64,000 nucleotides of DNA from Bacteroidaceae bacterium (GTDB taxonomy: Bacteria; Bacteroidota; Bacteroidia; Bacteroidales; Bacteroidaceae), in assembly GCA_024401115.1 (NCBI GenBank), contig JAKSLP010000008.1:1-64000 (forward strand), in the 5' to 3' direction. Positions 14,102 to 43,462 of this stretch are shown here, piece after piece. The notes beneath the pieces are model-generated. The model saw only the letters and a program-made list of their open reading frames with translations. It had not been told where the DNA came from and did no database searches. The position numbers and the translations under genes are program-made. Position 1 is the first letter of the stretch; the number at the start of each line of letters is the position of its first letter.

Positions 14102-14186
14102 CTGTCATGTTGAGCGAAGCGAAACATCTTTCTAAACTGAATAGTTCTCCTCGAAGCAAGATCCTTCGCCATGCTCAGGATGACAG
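14102..14186. repeat. Dispersed palindromic repeat, family 1, copy 1
   Basis: Imperfect palindrome beginning CTGTCATGTTGAGCGAAGCG and ending GCTCAGGATGACAG, between prfC and tsaC. The same element occurs at 15790-15876, 28400-28526, 40196-40280, 54830-54924 and, as a half copy, 54553-54610. Each lies in an intergenic gap and its ends are complementary, so the transcript can fold. Confidence 0.85.
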
Positions 14187-14201
14187 TATACTTAATTTCT
14201 A

Positions 14202-15767
14202 CTAAAACTCCGAAGTAAAGTGGAACCTGATATGTTCAAAATCCTCCTGCGCCATCTGCAGCACATAACCGCTGTCTGCCAGGAATACATCGCGTCCCTG
14301 ACGGTCCTTGGCCATATACTGATATTTGCGCTTCTTGAAGTTCTCTAATTCTGCCTGATCGTCACTCTCAATCCAGCAAGCCTTGTACAGACGCACAGGT
14401 TCCCAACGGCACTTAGCGTTATATTCATTCTCCAGACGATACTGGATAACCTCGAACTGCAACTGGCCAACTGTACCAATAATCTTGCGTCCGTTGAACT
14501 GGTTGACGAAAAGCTGAGCCACACCCTCGTCCATCAGCTGGTCAATACCCTTGTTCAGCTGCTTGGTCTTCATAGGGTCGGCATTCTCAATGTATTTGAA
14601 CAGCTCAGGGCTGAACGATGGCAATCCGCGGAAGTGCAGGTCCTCACCCTCGGTCAGTGTATCACCGATGGCAAAATTGCCTGTATCTGGCAAACCTACG
14701 ATATCACCTGGATAAGCCTCGTCAATGGTGCTCTTGCGCTGTGCCATAAACTGGGTTGGTGATGAGAATCGCAAGGTTTTTCCTGTACGCATATTTAAAT
14801 AAGGTGCATTTCGCACAAACTTACCGCTGCACACCTTACAGAATGCCACGCAACTGCGGTGATTTGGGTCGATATTGGCGGTAATCTTGAAGATGAAACC
14901 GGTAAACTTAGGTTCCTCAGGCTTAACCAGACGCTCCTCGGCTTTGGTAGGACGGGGACTTGGAGCGATCTGCACGAAGCAATCCAGCAACTCCTTTACA
15001 CCAAAGTTGTTCAAAGCCGAACCAAAGAAAACAGGAGCCACGGAAGCATCCAGGTAGCTCTCCACCTCGAACTCAGGATATACTCCATCTATCAGTTCCA
15101 GGTCGGCACGAAGCTTCTCGGCATCGTTCTCACCTACCATCTCATCCAGTTTCTCGCTGTTGATGTCTACCTCCACCTTTTCAGTTACCACCTGCTTGCT
15201 AGGCTGGTACAAATCCAGTTTCTGCTCAAAAATATTATATACGCCCTTGAAACGCTGACCCTGATTGATAGGCCAACTCAACGGGCGGACACTAATTTGC
15301 AATTCGCTCTCCAGTTCATCCAGCAAGTCGAATGGGTCCTTACCCTCACGGTCCATCTTGTTTACATACACGATAACCGGAGTATTGCGCATACGGCACA
15401 CCTCCATCAGCTTACGGGTCTGAGCCTCAACACCCTTGGCGCCATCCACAACGATGATGGCACTATCCACAGCCGTCAGTGTGCGGAAAGTATCCTCGGC
15501 AAAGTCCTGGTGACCTGGAGTATCCAGAATGTTCACCTTATAACCCTGATAGTCAAACTCCATCACAGAGGTTGTCACACTAATACCACGCTGCTTCTCA
15601 ATCTCCATCCAGTCACTGGTAGCAGTCTTCTTAATCTTATTGCTCTTTACGGCACCTGCCACCTGAATCTGACCACCAAACAGCAACAGTTTCTCGGTCA
15701 GTGTAGTCTTACCCGCATCAGGATGCGAGATGATGGCAAACGTTCTTCTTCTCTGTATTTCTTCCAT
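14202..15767 (-). CDS. prfC: Peptide chain release factor 3
   Basis: Ribosome-dependent GTPase of 521 residues that recycles RF1 and RF2 after termination. G1 is [11 protein letters not shown] (15-25), switch I/G2 [12 protein letters not shown]3 DTPGHQDF and G4 NKMDREG, all canonical. This contrasts with the EF-G paralogue at 3.9-6.0 kb. The RF3-specific tail [14 protein letters not shown] is complete. The gene is flanked on both sides by copies of the family 1 palindrome, which separate it from its neighbours. Confidence 0.97.
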
Positions 15768-15789
15768 TTAATATATATTTTCTTTTTTA

Positions 15790-15876
15790 TTGTCATCCTG
15801 AGTGGAACGAAGGATCTTACCTCGAGGATATGCTATCCAGTTTAGAAAGATGTTTCGCTTCGCTCAACATGACAAT
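15790..15876. repeat. Dispersed palindromic repeat, family 1, copy 2
   Basis: Begins ATTGTCATCCTGAGTGGAAC and ends CGCTCAACATGACAAT, filling most of the gap between the DUF4924 gene and prfC. Ends are complementary. Confidence 0.85.
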
Positions 15877-26591: not shown

Positions 26592-26676
26592 TCGAAAAAA
26601 TGTAAGTTTTCGCTAAAATTTCCATCGAAAAAATGTAAGTTTATAGTTGGCATATCCTCGAAAAAATGTAATTTTG
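26592..26676 (+). promoter_or_regulatory. Three 18-bp direct repeats at 33-bp period with promoter
   Basis: TCGAAAAAATGTAAGTTT at 26592-26609 and 26625-26642, and TCGAAAAAATGTAATTTT at 26658-26675. Starts are exactly 33 bases apart. The last copy contains the -7 element TAATTTTG (26669-26676), paired with TTG at 26647-26649 over a 19-base spacer. The first two copies lack the final G, so only the third makes a good -7. Confidence 0.75.
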
Positions 26677-26703
26677 CATTCAGAAGTTTATAAAATAACA
26701 GGA

Positions 26704-28005
26704 ATGGATAGAATCATAACTCAAAAATTAGAGGCTTGGAAGGAAAGCAAAACCAGGAAGCCACTTATCTTGCTTGGCGCCCGTCAGGTGGGCAAAACAT
26801 GGATAATGAAAGACTTTGGCAAGAATCATTATAGAAACGTGGCATACGTGAACTGTGATGAACAACCCTTGGCCAAATCCATGTTCGAGGCAGATTATAA
26901 CATTCCTCGCATATTGCTCATTGTACAGGCAATCACAGGAGTTCTGGTGGAACCAGCCAACACTCTCCTTATATTTGACGAGATTCAGGAGGCACCCCGG
27001 GGTTTACATTGCCTAAAGTATTTCTGTGAGAATGCGCCTGAATACCATGTGATGGCAGCAGGTTCACTGTTAGGAGTAGCACTTGGTCATAAAGAGTCAT
27101 ATCCTGTAGGAAAAGTAAATATGCTTAGGCTTCACCCCATGAATTTTGAGGAATTTCTATTGGCTTTAGGTGAAAAACAGATGTATAACATTCTAAAATC
27201 CGGCGACAAAGGATTACAAAGCATAATGAAGCCAAAATTCATAGAATTACTACGGCAGTATTATTTTGTTGGAGGAATGCCTGAAGTTGTCCGTTCGTAC
27301 GTAGAAAATCGAGATTTAAAAGAGGTTCGAGGGCTGCAGAATGACATCATAGAATCTTATCGACGCGATATTTCTAAACACGCCACAAAGAGTGAGGCTG
27401 TACGTATCAATCAGGTTTTGGACAGCATTCCCTCGCAACTGGCCAAGGAAAACAAAAAATTCATCTACGGTGTAATCAAGGAAGGAGCCCGCGCTGCCCA
27501 ATATGAATTAGCCATACAATGGCTGGTAGATGCAGGAATTGTATATAAAGTACCAAGAGTCAGTACTATGAAAATGCCACTTAAAGCATATGAGGACTTG
27601 GGAGCTTTCAAACTGTTCCTGCTTGATTGTGGACTTTTGGGGCTTATGGAAGACACCCCAGCTGCGCAGGTTATAGCATCGGATAATGCATTTACAGAAT
27701 ACAAAGGAGCTTTTACAGAGCAATATGTTCACCAGCAGTTAGCTTCTGCAGGAATCAAAGCATATTATTGGAGTAACGCAAAGACTTCTGCAGAAATTGA
27801 TTTTGTCATTCAACACGAAAATCGGGTGATACCTGTTGAGGTAAAGGCAGAGGAAAATGTCCGTGCCAAGTCAATGGCAGAATACATCAAGAACAATCCG
27901 GAACTACATCTTAAAGGATTAAGAATATCGATGAAAGATTACATAGATCAAGGTTGGATGGAAAACATACCGCTTTATGCAATTACACTTCCTGGTCAGT
28001 CCTAA
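26704..28005 (+). CDS. AAA ATPase with DUF4143 domain
   Basis: A 433-residue protein of the common Bacteroidales type PF13173 + DUF4143. Walker A is LLGARQVGKTWIMKDFGKN (about residues 21-39), Walker B NTLLIFDEIQEAPRGLHCLKYF. The C-terminal half contains SAEIDFVIQHENRVIPVEVKAEE, a PD-(D/E)XK-like nuclease-fold signature. An upstream TTG would add 19 residues but lies in the promoter repeats, so the ATG at 26704 is used. Cellular role of these ATPases is unknown. It is a lone cargo gene after terminator T3. Confidence 0.85.
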   Translation: MDRIITQKLEAWKESKTRKPLILLGARQVGKTWIMKDFGKNHYRNVAYVNCDEQPLAKSMFEADYNIPRILLIVQAITGVLVEPANTLLIFDEIQEAPRGLHCLKYFCENAPEYHVMAAGSLLGVALGHKESYPVGKVNMLRLHPMNFEEFLLALGEKQMYNILKSGDKGLQSIMKPKFIELLRQYYFVGGMPEVVRSYVENRDLKEVRGLQNDIIESYRRDISKHATKSEAVRINQVLDSIPSQLAKENKKFIYGVIKEGARAAQYELAIQWLVDAGIVYKVPRVSTMKMPLKAYEDLGAFKLFLLDCGLLGLMEDTPAAQVIASDNAFTEYKGAFTEQYVHQQLASAGIKAYYWSNAKTSAEIDFVIQHENRVIPVEVKAEENVRAKSMAEYIKNNPELHLKGLRISMKDYIDQGWMENIPLYAITLPGQS

Positions 28006-28239
28006 AAGCTTGTACAGTAGGATAACCCATACTATGCCCGATATAGATTGATTTTAACCTGAAAATTTGGGTAATTAAGGTGAATTTAGGGTATACATGT
28101 CCAAATTCAAAGATTTTAGGTATTATGCATGCGAAGAACAAATATTCAAAATCGACAAATATACATTCGAACCCAATTTTATTGCTTTATTACGGGAATA
28201 GAACAATTGGACAAAACTCAAAATTTTTCAAAAAAGGCC

Positions 28240-28688
28240 AACTCTCCACTAAATTCTTATAACATATTGAAACACTATCAGATATCTTAGTGGAGAGTTG
28301 ATTCTAAGTTTCCACTAACTTTCCACTAACTCTCCACTAGGGTTCCACTAAAAAACAAAACAATAATTATATTCAGGTTTCGCAAATGGCCTATCCAGTT
28401 GTCATCCTGAGTGAAACGAAGGATCTTACCTGGCTAGTAATGAGATCCGCATTAGAAAGATTCTCTCTCCGCTTCGCTATGAGAGCGAACAAGTTCGAGC
28501 GCTTCGCATACGCTCAGGATGACAAATAAAACAGGATGATGAAAAATATTCAGGATGAAAGAGGGAGGAAGATTTTTTAGTGGAGGGTTGGTGGAGACTT
28601 AGTGGAGAGTTAGTGGAGAGTTGAGAGTAACTCTCCACTAAGTTTTAGTTCTGAAATACAATAAGATATACTGATTTAGTGGAAGGTT
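28240..28688. repeat. Array of an 11-bp motif (AGTGGAGAGTT) in both orientations
   Basis: AACTCTCCACT occurs at 28240-28250 and 28629-28639, and AGTGGAGAGTT at 28289-28299, 28601-28611 and 28612-28622. Variants form tandem runs with an 11-base period at 28309-28352 (TTTCCACTAAC type) and 28579-28622 (AGTGGAGGGTT type), with a last one at 28678-28688. Left runs are mostly the reverse complement of right runs, so the 450-bp block can fold back around the family 1 palindrome in its middle. The rest of 28006-29137 has no gene I can support. Confidence 0.8.
28400..28526. repeat. Dispersed palindromic repeat, family 1, copy 3 (extended)
   Basis: Begins TTGTCATCCTGAGTGAAACG and ends CGCTCAGGATGACAA. 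It is longer than the other copies because of an inserted GAGAGCGAACAAGTTCGAGC segment, also seen in the half copy at 54553-54610. Confidence 0.85.
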
Positions 28689-28810
28689 GGCGAATTTCTG
28701 GATTTAACAAGTCTGTACGTTGCTTGTCCTGGATTCCATTAATAAATAAGGTAAATCAGAGTAACATTTCACTTAACGAAACGGATCCAGTTACTTAAGT
28801 AATCATTATT

Positions 28811-28893
28811 TTCCGCAGTCACGGAACACTTTTTCCGTGCTTACGGAACAATAGAAGCAACTATATAAGCGGAATCTTTCCGCAGTAACGGAA
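28811..28893. repeat. Three TTCCG-N6-CGGAA palindromes
   Basis: TTCCGCAGTCACGGAA (28811-28826), TTCCGTGCTTACGGAA (28833-28848) and TTCCGCAGTAACGGAA (28878-28893): three 16-bp palindromes within 83 bases. They could be binding sites or a short repeat family. No promoter or gene is adjacent. Confidence 0.75.
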
Positions 28894-29137
28894 AAACAGA
28901 CATATAAAATGATGTAAAGTGTAGGAATAAGGGACAAATCAAGCAAAAAAAAAACATCACCTACCCCACTAAATCAGGACAGGAAATAGGGATGATAAGC
29001 ACCGTTTACGTTAAATATATTAAGAATTGAAGTCATATTAAGAGCCACTACAGCAAGAAAAAAAGTCAAAAAAATACCCTATTTTGAAAAAGGAAACACC
29101 ACTATAAAATAAAGCCTTTCGATTGATGCTCAGCATA

Positions 29138-29372: not shown

Positions 29373-30854
29373 ATGAGAATGAGATTTCCTTTATTCGCAA
29401 TTGCAGCAGCATCTGTATTTGCTGCGTCTTGTACATCAGACAAGGATCTGTACGATGAGAACTACCAGAACGAAGTAGAGAAGGCTACCTATGAGCAGAA
29501 CTTCATCAAGAAATTTGGTGCTCCCGCTGCAACTCAGGATTTCAACGCTGTTGAGAACTATCAAATCAATGTTGAAGCTAGTGCCAGCAAAAATATTAAG
29601 ATTTACGCACCTAGCCAGAATGGTGTAAGTAAATTGGTTGCAGATTATGCTATTTCAGGTAATCAGACAATCAGCTTCGCCGCACCAGAAGGTACAGAAG
29701 TTGTGTATGTAGTAGATGATAACGGCCAGGTTCAAGCTGTAAATCCAAAGAATGGAACTGTTTCTTTGACTTCTAGAGCAACTCGTGGCGTTACTGAAAA
29801 AGAGACTGAAAATGTTGTTATCGGAAAAGCAAAAGAAACCTGTAAAGAGTTCGCTAACTCATTTACAAGAAACACATATCTAGGATTGGTTTCAAAAACT
29901 AACGAATGGACCGTATTCTATACTAAAGGCGCTAAAAGTGCGCAGAAAGATGGTGTAATTGCTGTTGGTATTTATTACTACGACCAGAATGGTCAGAAGA
30001 TTGATGTTGAGACATGGACACCTGATGCCGAGACTTTATCAAATGGAAATGTTTCATATGGATTTACCGTCAAGATTAAGAATCAGGAAGGTCCTATCTA
30101 TTGGGGCTTATGGATGGATTTGAAAGATGTAGAAGGTAGAGTTTACGACTATGGAACGAATGATGGCACACCTTACGGTAAGTATAATGCACATGTTGAT
30201 GATCTAGTAAACAGAGAAGGCGTTTCTGTCTTGGGTTTTGACTTAGACGATAACGACAACTACGGTGATGAGATTTTCATCATTAATAAATCCGAAAACG
30301 AAATCATTGACCCTACAGCATTCTCTTATGTTTTGGCTTGCGAGGATTTAGGAAATACTGACGATTTCGACTTCAACGATGTTGTATTCTCTGCTTCTTA
30401 TGTAGCTGGTAGAAAAATTATGACCGTTAAGCCTTTAGCAGCTGGTGGTACTTTGAATTCTACTATTTCTTATAAGGATAAGGAGATTGGTGAAATCCAT
30501 GATTTGCTGGGAGCACCATCTAACACTATCTACAACACTACTTCTTTCACCGACTCTGGAACAGAGACTTATTTTGAAGTACCTGAGTCATTTGATTTGA
30601 AGGCAGCAATGAATGATTTCGTAATTCAGGTTGTAGACGGTGATAAGGCTACCAGAAAAATCACATTGCCAAAGGGTAACAACAAAATTCCTCAGGTAAT
30701 TTGTGTTCCAGGTGATTGGTTCTGGCCAACTGAAAGAACTGAAATTGGTGATGCTTATAAAAACTTTACCAAATGGGTACAAGCACAGCATCAGGAAGAT
30801 GGCATCGAATGGTGGAAGCCAACATACGTTTCCGGTAAGGTTGTTGTAAGATAA
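29373..30854 (+). CDS. LruC-domain surface lipoprotein 3
   Basis: A 493-residue lipoprotein distantly paralogous to the two upstream. Signal peptide FPLFAIAAASVFAASC with lipidated Cys near residue 20, then TSDKDLYDENYQ and the family motif YEQNFIKKFGAPAATQDFN. The second acidic motif is clear (EDLGNTDDFDFNDVVFSA, near residue 330); the first is replaced by LDDNDNYGDEIFIINKSENE. The N-terminal third (VEASASKNIKIYAPSQNGVS...) has no counterpart in the other two. Two in-frame ATGs (29373, 29379) are both possible starts. Confidence 0.83.
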   Translation: MRMRFPLFAIAAASVFAASCTSDKDLYDENYQNEVEKATYEQNFIKKFGAPAATQDFNAVENYQINVEASASKNIKIYAPSQNGVSKLVADYAISGNQTISFAAPEGTEVVYVVDDNGQVQAVNPKNGTVSLTSRATRGVTEKETENVVIGKAKETCKEFANSFTRNTYLGLVSKTNEWTVFYTKGAKSAQKDGVIAVGIYYYDQNGQKIDVETWTPDAETLSNGNVSYGFTVKIKNQEGPIYWGLWMDLKDVEGRVYDYGTNDGTPYGKYNAHVDDLVNREGVSVLGFDLDDNDNYGDEIFIINKSENEIIDPTAFSYVLACEDLGNTDDFDFNDVVFSASYVAGRKIMTVKPLAAGGTLNSTISYKDKEIGEIHDLLGAPSNTIYNTTSFTDSGTETYFEVPESFDLKAAMNDFVIQVVDGDKATRKITLPKGNNKIPQVICVPGDWFWPTERTEIGDAYKNFTKWVQAQHQEDGIEWWKPTYVSGKVVVR

Positions 30855-39214: not shown

Positions 39215-39384
39215 ACTGACTACAGACAACGGACTACAGTCAACAGACTGCCATGCGGAATATTGACGAGACCCCGTCCGTTGTCAGTTGACTGTTGTCC
39301 GTTGTCAATAAAAAGACTTCTGTGACAATGGTCTAATGGCGAAGCCCCGTCCGTTGTCCGTTGACTGTTGTCCGTTGTCAATAA
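39215..39384. repeat. Dispersed palindromic repeat, family 2, copy 1 plus a partial copy
   Basis: A palindromic block built on GACAACGGACTACAGTCAAC and its reverse complement GTTGACTGTTGTCCGTTGTC around CCATGCGGAATATTG. The full copy is 39215-39307; a second right half follows at about 39333-39384. Same family at 41452-41542 and, in part, 43426-43462. Confidence 0.8.
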
Positions 39385-41451: not shown

Positions 41452-41542
41452 TTGACAACAGACAACGGACTACAGTCAACAGACTGCCATGCGGAATATT
41501 GGCGAAGCCCCATCCGTTGTCTGTTGACTGTTGTCCGTTGTC
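41452..41542. repeat. Dispersed palindromic repeat, family 2, copy 2
   Basis: TTGACAACAGACAACGGACT through the CCATGCGGAATATTGG core to GACTGTTGTCCGTTGTCA; sandwiched between the terminators of the convergent mrp and ABC exporter genes. Confidence 0.82.
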
Positions 41543-41544
41543 AT

Positions 41545-41577
41545 AAAAAAGGCTCCTGAATTTCAGGAGCCTTTTTT
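41545..41577 (-). terminator. Terminator of the MsbA-like gene
   Basis: AAAAAAGGCTCCTGAA / TTCAGGAGCCTTTTTT, able to act on both strands and lying right after the minus-strand stop codon. Confidence 0.9.
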
Positions 41578-41578
41578 A

Positions 41579-43420
41579 TTATACCTGCTGCATATCACAC
41601 AGTTTCTTGTAATGTCCGTCCAAAGCCAGCAGATCGTCATGCTTGCCGCGCTCCACAATCTGGCCTTCGTGCAGCACACAGATCTCATCGGCATTGCGAA
41701 TGGTGCTCAGACGGTGGGCAATGGCTATGGTGGTACGGTTCTTCATCAAGCGCTCCAGGGCCTCCTGTACCATACGCTCTGATTCAGTATCCAGGGCACT
41801 GGTAGCCTCATCCAGAATCAGGATACGAGGGTTCTTTAAAATGGCCCGGGCTATGCTGATACGCTGGCGCTGGCCACCGCTTAACTTGCCTCCCCTATCG
41901 CCTATCATCGTGTTGTAACCGTCCTCGGTTTCCATGATAAAGTCATGTGCATTGGCTATCTTGGCTGCCTCAATCACCTGCTCCATGGTGGCTTCCTTCA
42001 CACCGAAGGTGATGTTATTATAGAAGGTGTCGTTAAACAGGATAGCCTCCTGGTTCACATTACCCATCAGGTCGCGCAGTTCCAGGAACGACACATCACG
42101 GATATCGGTACCGCCCAGTAGAATCTGGCCTTCCTGCACATCGTAGAAACGCGGAATCAAGTCCACCAGTGTGGTCTTACCGCTACCGCTCTGTCCCACC
42201 AGGGCTATGGTCTTACCGTCCTCAATATCCAGGTTGATGTGGCGCAGCACATATTTCTGGTCGTACTTGAAGCTCACGTCCTTAAACTGAATCAGCGGAC
42301 CGTTTGTCTTCAAGTTCAGGTGCTTAGGCTCAGCCGGTTCCGGAATAGAGTTGGTTGCCTGCAGAATCTTATCGATACGCTCCATACTGGCCATACCCTT
42401 GGGAATGTTGTAGGTAGCCTTCGAGAAATCCTTCAGCGGATTGATCAGGCTGTACAGCATCACCAGATAGAAGATGAAAGTAGGCGCATTGATAAAGCTG
42501 TCCTCGGAATCCAGGATCAACCAACCGCCAAACCACAACACAATAACAATAAGAATAGTACCCAGGAACTCGCTCATCGGATGAGCCAGTTGCTGGCGGA
42601 TGTTCACACGGGTGATGGTATTGCGGTAATCCTCGTTGGTATTGGCAAAACGATTGTACATCTTGGGCTCGGCATGGAAGGCCTTGATGACACGCAGGCC
42701 ACCCAGTGTCTCCTCTACCTGACTCATGGTGGCTCCCCACAGGTTCTGCGCAGTTAAGGAGGTTCGTTTCAACTGGCGTCCCACCTTACCCATGAACCAT
42801 CCCATGCCAGGGAGTACAATCAGGGTAAACAGGGTCAACTGCCAGCTCACGGCTATCAGGGTACCGAAATAGGCAATAATCAGAATTGGGTTCTTGAACA
42901 GCATGTCCAGACTGCTCATGATACTGTTCTCCACCTCCTGTACATCACCGCTCATACGGGCAATGATATCACCCTTGCGCTCGTCACTGAAGAAGCCCAA
43001 TGGCAGGTTCAGTATCTTCTGGTAGAGCTGGTTGCGTATGTCACGCACCACACCGGTACGGATAGGAATGATGGTGGCCGACGAAAGGAAATAGGCTCCG
43101 GTCTTCAGGGCGGTCATCACCGACAGGAAGATACCCAGGATGAGCAGGGTATTACTGGCTCCCACCGTCTCGATGAGTTGGGTTACCCCGTAATAGAAGT
43201 TGTTCACTGCCCAGTCCTTGATGCCCGATGCCTGGTCGAGTGTCAGGTACTGGTACACGGTACCGTCCTCCATCTTGAACAGAATCTGGAGGATAGGAAT
43301 TATCAGGGTAAATGAGAATACGTTCAGTACTGCCGACAGGATATTAAACAATATCGTCAGTACCAGATATTTTTTGTAAGGTGGCACAAACCTGCGCAGC
43401 ACCTTCATGAATTCCTTCAT
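41579..43420 (-). CDS. ABC exporter, MsbA/lipid-flippase-like half transporter
   Basis: A 613-residue protein with an N-terminal six-helix membrane domain (from YKKYLVLTILFNILSAVLNVF to about residue 330) and a C-terminal ATPase. The ATPase has Walker A LVGQSGSGKTTLVDLIPRFYD, signature KLSGGQRQRISIARAILKNPRILILDEATSALD and H-loop IAHRLSTI. Homodimeric exporters of this kind move lipid A precursors, lipids or drugs; MsbA is the closest general match, but substrate is not provable. It lies downstream of the coiled-coil gene, separated by a family 2 repeat. Confidence 0.9.
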   Translation of the reverse strand: MKEFMKVLRRFVPPYKKYLVLTILFNILSAVLNVFSFTLIIPILQILFKMEDGTVYQYLTLDQASGIKDWAVNNFYYGVTQLIETVGASNTLLILGIFLSVMTALKTGAYFLSSATIIPIRTGVVRDIRNQLYQKILNLPLGFFSDERKGDIIARMSGDVQEVENSIMSSLDMLFKNPILIIAYFGTLIAVSWQLTLFTLIVLPGMGWFMGKVGRQLKRTSLTAQNLWGATMSQVEETLGGLRVIKAFHAEPKMYNRFANTNEDYRNTITRVNIRQQLAHPMSEFLGTILIVIVLWFGGWLILDSEDSFINAPTFIFYLVMLYSLINPLKDFSKATYNIPKGMASMERIDKILQATNSIPEPAEPKHLNLKTNGPLIQFKDVSFKYDQKYVLRHINLDIEDGKTIALVGQSGSGKTTLVDLIPRFYDVQEGQILLGGTDIRDVSFLELRDLMGNVNQEAILFNDTFYNNITFGVKEATMEQVIEAAKIANAHDFIMETEDGYNTMIGDRGGKLSGGQRQRISIARAILKNPRILILDEATSALDTESERMVQEALERLMKNRTTIAIAHRLSTIRNADEICVLHEGQIVERGKHDDLLALDGHYKKLCDMQQV

Positions 43421-43425
43421 TATTA

Positions 43426-43462
43426 TTGACTACGGACAACAGTCTACAGACAACAGACTGTG
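43426..43462. repeat. Dispersed palindromic repeat, family 2, partial copy
   Basis: TTGACTACGGACAACAGTCT followed by ACAGACAACAGACTG: the left part of the family 2 element, in the 45-base gap between two minus-strand genes. Confidence 0.7.

Follow-up and report, generated by a model that had tools for sequence, protein, structure and literature searches.

Short motifs repeated in both orientations near both ends, with non-autonomous forms that arise by internal deletion, are found in En/Spm-type elements, and the TnpA protein of the plant elements binds subterminal sites. At parC of plasmid R1, a single locus, ParR binds two groups of five 11-bp repeats arranged in direct orientation. The origins of SaPIs sit downstream of rep, SaPI iterons are recognized by the C-terminal domain of Rep, and the C-terminal domain of the Cch2 helicase, which has a related function, binds its own repeats (PMC7581432). 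For ATPases of the PF05272 VapE/VirE group a role in mobile elements, as their replication helicases, has been predicted (PMC5862659); several copies per genome are present in the Bacteroidales examined here, where their role is unsettled.

We describe a symmetric repeat block in the window, the whole 64,000-nucleotide stretch that was analysed (on contig 78 of a draft genome that shares its genus with Candidatus Minthousia equi, genome G001). The block is probably a non-autonomous, MITE-like copy of an element family of gut Bacteroidales in which vapE lies between mirrored, iteron-like arms and which may move or replicate. The observed basis for this reading is dispersal, a common architecture, linkage to vapE, co-variation of motif and protein, and internally deleted derivatives. 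By the tests made, the element does not fit an IS, as it has no transposase and does not generally duplicate its target, or a SaPI, as it has no integrase.

Architecture of the element in the window

The element is about 455 bp long, lies between genes for a DUF4143 ATPase and a DUF4842 protein, and has a right arm that mirrors its left (Table 1). From the outside inward, each arm begins with the outer site, followed by a spacer of 38 bp, an inner site in inverted orientation, a gap of 5-6 bp and a tandem array of 3-4 copies. The 11-mer AGTGGAGAGTT occurs ten times in the window, exactly or with one mismatch, and eight of these matches are inside 28240-28688; shuffled sequence led us to expect 1.25, and 0 of 100 shuffles reached ten. 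With variants allowed the block holds eleven sites, TRF reported two mutually inverted arrays with an 11-bp period, and an inverted repeat of 80% connects the arms. The preliminary description, which spoke of about ten motif copies, partly in perfect 11-base tandems, and of a left half mainly complementary to the right, was accurate on each of these points; it mentioned neither the function of the outer sites as element ends nor the 49/66-bp rule of spacing. The ends of the element (GCC/AAC ... GTT/GGC) were set by the outer sites and are bordered by A-rich and T-rich flanks similar to the ends of other copies, many of which lie near contig ends of draft assemblies, limiting what can be said of element ends.

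Table 1. Features of the repeat block and its surroundings, in window coordinates.
Feature	Position	Strand	Remark
DUF4143 ATPase gene	26647-28005
A-rich flank	28230-28235
Whole element, probably non-autonomous	28237-28691		GCC/AACTCTCC ... GGAAGGTT/GGC
Left outer 11-bp site	28240-28250	-	motif match
Left AT-rich spacer, 38 bp	28251-28288		site start-to-start 49 bp
Left inner inverted site	28289-28299	+	motif match
Left tandem array	28306-28349	-	3 sites and a degenerate fourth (28339), 11-bp period
Loop between arms	28350-28578		without ORF of at least 80 aa
GTCATCCTGAG-family palindrome in loop	28399-28525		unrelated dispersed repeat
Right tandem array	28579-28622	+	4 sites, 11-bp period
Right inner inverted site	28629-28639	-	motif match
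Right spacer, 38 bp	28640-28677
Right outer 11-bp site	28678-28688	+	AGTGGAAGGTT
T-rich flank	28692-28699
DUF4842 protein gene	29373-30854
Eleven sites, variants allowed	28240 (-), 28289 (+), 28306 (-), 28317 (-), 28328 (-); 28579 (+), 28590 (+), 28601 (+), 28612 (+), 28629 (-), 28678 (+)		start positions
TRF tandem arrays	28304-28351; 28577-28622		mutually inverted
Inverted repeat	28286-28355; 28573-28642		80%

A palindrome had also been described inside the array. A palindrome of the GTCATCCTGAG family is indeed present in the loop, but it is a separate dispersed repeat that does not belong to the element; it occupies the loop in only two of the seven two-armed copies of the source genome (those in the window and on C1) and is common elsewhere. 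The same palindrome also brackets a gene at 14202-15767 of the window, with inverted copies at 14103-14188 and 15788-15874. Three short TTCCG..CGGAA palindromes adjoin the element at 28809-28896, and in other genomes similar, species-specific palindromes (GTTTACGTGCAAAC, TTCCCACGTTGGGAA and GCTCCGTGC) cluster beside or inside element copies. Short tandem repeats of the GACTACAGACAACA type were found at 39218-39379, 41454-41550 and 43420-43457, and in M. equi such repeats also lie beside elements.

Dispersed copies and possible insertion traces

The source genome holds seven more copies at unrelated intergenic loci, six with two arms (C1, C26, C33, C39, C45 and C61) and one half copy (C20), and others were found in further Prevotellaceae, so that the possibility raised earlier, of a unique array absent in relatives, does not apply. 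Four of the six additional two-armed copies enclose only a 20-40 bp loop, and array length differs from copy to copy. The copies on C26, C45 and C39, the last of them inverted, are homologous from the GCC/AAC end to about 22 bp past the opposite outer site. Relatives use their own dialects of the motif: M. equi has AGTGGAGGGTT, G417 has AGTGGATAGTT and G415 has AGTGGAATGTT. The strict pattern was matched in 4 of 399 genomes of the family, and the window motif is thus narrow in distribution; all loci that carry it come from draft metagenome assemblies. Gene-less copies of the AGTGGA type in G415, G416 and G417 had no visible cognate vapE, which may reflect loss or incomplete assembly. In G417 a long VapE gene (L140:2930-5071) has a gene-less AGTGGATAGTT copy immediately upstream of it (2611-2859). 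A multi-copy sequence at broken contig ends of G417, first taken for an autonomous element, proved to be another repeat.

Target-site duplications were not found in general, own flanks scoring 6.5 and mismatched flanks 6.1. Only at L201 and L226 are vapE copies flanked by A/T-rich direct repeats of 13-15 bp (AAAAAAACTTTTT; TTTTTAATnAAAAAT), which are possible target duplications. No strain polymorphism was found, and a search for orthologous empty sites by way of neighbouring genes yielded none: the DNA downstream of the ABC-F ortholog in G004 (93%) was unrelated, and for the neighbour of the C1 copy only paralogs were found.

vapE genes between mirrored arms

The copy on C61 (L059) has arms 2.1 kb apart that enclose a 397-aa VapE ATPase (PF05272, with C-terminal PF12990/DUF3874) and a DUF6078 protein. 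The same gene pair with arms of the same motif type is found in M. equi (L198), and in G004 (L199) it has one arm, the other side being lost at a contig end. A further M. equi copy (L091, 3182-4340) carries a higBA-type toxin-antitoxin pair between its arms, consisting of a Gp49-type toxin and an HTH antitoxin; the antitoxin stop codon falls inside the array.

VapE was searched for in nine genomes, and the flanks of the genes were then inspected. Both flanks were available for nine short vapE genes, and every one of these genes lay between mirrored repeats, 54-158 nt in length with E<=1e-12; an independent k-mer score was at least 3 at seven of nine short vapE genes compared with none of about 100 other genes. 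Two control genes in the window also had flanking inverted repeats, for which copies of the GTCATCCTGAG palindrome and repeats of the GACAACAG type account. The arrays at vapE genes share the layout of the window element and are built from locus-specific motifs of 10-12 bp: AACACCTATCAC (L201), ACTTAACATAG (L204), ACCTCCC (L205, L207), ATCYCTCCCAT (L206), CTCTTCAC (L209) and CTGCCATA (L200). Across these unrelated motifs the order and strand of the sites are kept (about 0/-, 48/+ and 66/-, then the mirror image), the window element follows the resulting 49/66-bp rule, and the outer-to-inner spacing, 49 bp in the window, is 45-56 bp in most other families. At many loci with differing motifs vapE is the sole gene between the arms, and in full-length copies the arrays that flank it are 1.4-2.3 kb apart. 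Most long VapE genes lacked such arms in the flank comparison. Arms do flank the gene of one long VapE whose N-terminal domain is of the BT4734 type (L226, in G009, a single-contig genome) and, more weakly, a DUF6078-BT4734 unit in a record of Parabacteroides distasonis.

DUF6078 is encoded beside or between the arms at 8 of 14 short-vapE loci (L059:4313-4822, L198, L199, L204, L208, L209, L210 and L264), and also beside a long vapE in P. distasonis. The protein has four invariant cysteines, its model gave no fold match, and it is possibly a partner of VapE. In the copies examined, no nuclease, recombinase or transposase was recognized between the arms, nor were integrase, excisionase or packaging genes.

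Descent of the gene-less copies from a vapE copy would predict that a genome whose vapE uses a different motif also has gene-less copies with that motif. This was the case in G417, where vapE L207 uses ACCTCCC. The genome contains an internally deleted vapE between ACCTCCC arms (L254), in which the N-terminus and the C-terminal domain are joined in frame (159 aa). In addition, L255 is reduced to its arms, L257 is another short copy, and two arms occur singly. Genomes lacking a vapE of the ACCTCCC type (G000, G001, G005 and G415) had no match to the pattern, and in G416 both pairs of matches belong to the vapE copy of that genome. The relation to a full copy by internal deletion is seen for the ACCTCCC family and not for the window copy itself.

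Co-variation of motif and helicase

Motif similarity was correlated with identity in the C-terminal 73 residues of VapE (Mantel r=0.69, permutation p=5e-5) in a set of only 12 proteins that are related by descent, with motifs phased by hand. In partial Mantel tests the correlation was 0.68 for the C-terminus given the core and -0.34 for the ATPase core given the C-terminus. This co-variation, which is support and not proof, suggests that the sites are read by the C-terminal domain; it also fits the earlier proposal of a protein array, which the 11-base period would suit by placing the copies on nearly the same face of the DNA. An AlphaFold model of VapE (mean pLDDT 78.5) matched PriRep1 on dsDNA over nearly its full length (Z 18.9 over 368 residues), and PriRep1 is also the closest solved relative by sequence (E 1e-15). 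We take PriRep1, whose PDB name is 'Similar to D. nodosus vapE', to be a SaPI protein. By sequence and predicted fold, VapE is assigned to the self-loading helicases of the D5/VapE type.

These observations lead us to propose a mechanism in which the sites would be iterons and the cognate VapE, a putative self-loading hexameric helicase of the D5/SaPI-Rep type, would bind them through its C-terminal domain (DUF3874). One VapE ring would load at each mirrored array and unwind the DNA in between, the enclosed DNA might then be copied by host enzymes, and gene-less copies, including the one in the window, could be served in trans by the VapE of C61. The broadest form of the idea, which we advance tentatively as less likely than not, is a class of bacterial transposable element free of transposase and recombinase. 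Its single gene would encode a VapE helicase that binds mirrored iteron arrays at both ends and drives copying of the DNA between them; this VapE would also act in trans on gene-less copies and on captured cargo such as higBA, and would have diversified together with the motif across Bacteroidales. Searches of the open-access literature with the 11-mer on both strands gave unrelated papers only, and no paper on arm-flanked vapE was found there.

Alternative explanations

An ordinary MITE or IS family might produce a similar picture if an unseen transposase bound the subterminal 11-bp sites and vapE and higBA were mere cargo. Gene-less copies, A/T-tract ends and cargo that varies between higBA-type (L091) and vapE with DUF6078 (L059) would all suit such a family. 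We nevertheless consider it improbable, since no copy has a transposase between its arms, duplication of the target is not general, vapE stands alone inside arms of differing motif at many loci, and co-variation of the motif with the VapE C-terminus is not expected of cargo.

It is similarly improbable, and slightly more so, that the element is an origin-like satellite, its arrays being or mimicking the replication origin that belongs to a VapE carried by a phage or plasmid, and that copies were amplified when such a replicon entered the cell. The cognate vapE is located between the arms themselves, the phage and plasmid VapE genes examined are mostly without arms, and viral contigs contained no such array by exact pattern and no confirmed relative of VapE (A1), whereas the replication role predicted for VapE/VirE ATPases (PMC5862659) and the presence of VapE relatives in phage records and in Bacteroidales records labelled as plasmids speak in its favour.

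The preliminary description had envisaged a large cruciform or a long folded RNA, to which a bidirectional terminator between convergent genes may be added; all are very unlikely. The predicted fold is strong (z -11.4), but it is so because the sites are mirrored. The mean similarity of arms is 0.68 within the same element and 0.73 between elements (six copies), and nothing points to selection on arm pairing; the arms of the C61 copy are 2.1 kb apart, and no described family in Rfam matched at its gathering score. An A-tract precedes and a T-tract follows the block, as a terminator might have, and convergent ORFs (from mechanical ORF calls) flank 11 of the 19 copies whose neighbours were called, although an intergenic 3' position also fits insertion tolerance. 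A centromere-like or nucleoid array, suggested by the 11-bp period and the two groups of sites, is hard to credit given several dispersed copies per genome, a motif tied to vapE, and no partition genes recognized beside the copies examined. Neutral repeat slippage, for which the variable array length speaks, has the least to commend it and is refuted by recurrence of the mirror layout, with its near-fixed 49/66-bp spacing, at many loci with unrelated motifs.

Some observations also run against the preferred reading of a vapE element with gene-less derivatives. Arrays flank the gene in full-length copies, whereas SaPI origins are downstream of rep; arms are absent from most long VapE genes, and the gene-less AGTGGA copies of three genomes are without a visible cognate vapE; and no empty site, strain polymorphism or general target-site duplication was found. 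If VapE is the motor of small elements with cognate iterons, this would provide one explanation for a common 'virulence-associated' annotation, for many unexplained intergenic repeats and for how toxin-antitoxin pairs and other small cargo spread, and would raise the question of how an element with only a helicase inserts.

Comparison with known systems

The two groups of 11-bp repeats recall R1 parC, which differs in its direct orientation, its single locus and its binding by ParR. En/Spm elements are alike in having subterminal motif arrays in both orientations and derivatives by internal deletion, but the element described here is bacterial and its protein is a helicase, with no transposase recognized. 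Its dispersed gene-less copies with inverted ends, and the internal deletion of a full copy that keeps the same ends (ACCTCCC family), are features of MITEs; unlike these, it shows no general target-site duplication (L201 and L226 excepted), and the full copy has vapE, with or without DUF6078, and no transposase. Among MITEs of Bacteroidales, the BrickBuilt/PgRS elements of Porphyromonas gingivalis are likewise small, intergenic and dispersed, with tandem repeats and about 10-20 copies, but they combine 23-nt repeats in one orientation with IS5-type TIRs (PMC4596501), where our element has 11-nt sites in mirrored arms and a parent that carries vapE and no IS transposase. Neither the 23-nt repeat nor the IS5-type TIR (GAGACC...) was found in element copies. 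The SaPI replicon and SCCmec Cch2 are similar in that VapE is closest to PriRep1, short repeats lie near the gene, and the C-terminal domain that recognizes repeats there (PMC7581432) may have its counterpart here in a C-terminus that co-varies with the motif. The present element differs from them in carrying repeats at both ends, in mirrored arms whose outer site is fixed, in having no integrase, excisionase or packaging genes between these arms, and in its gene-less copies dispersed through the genome.
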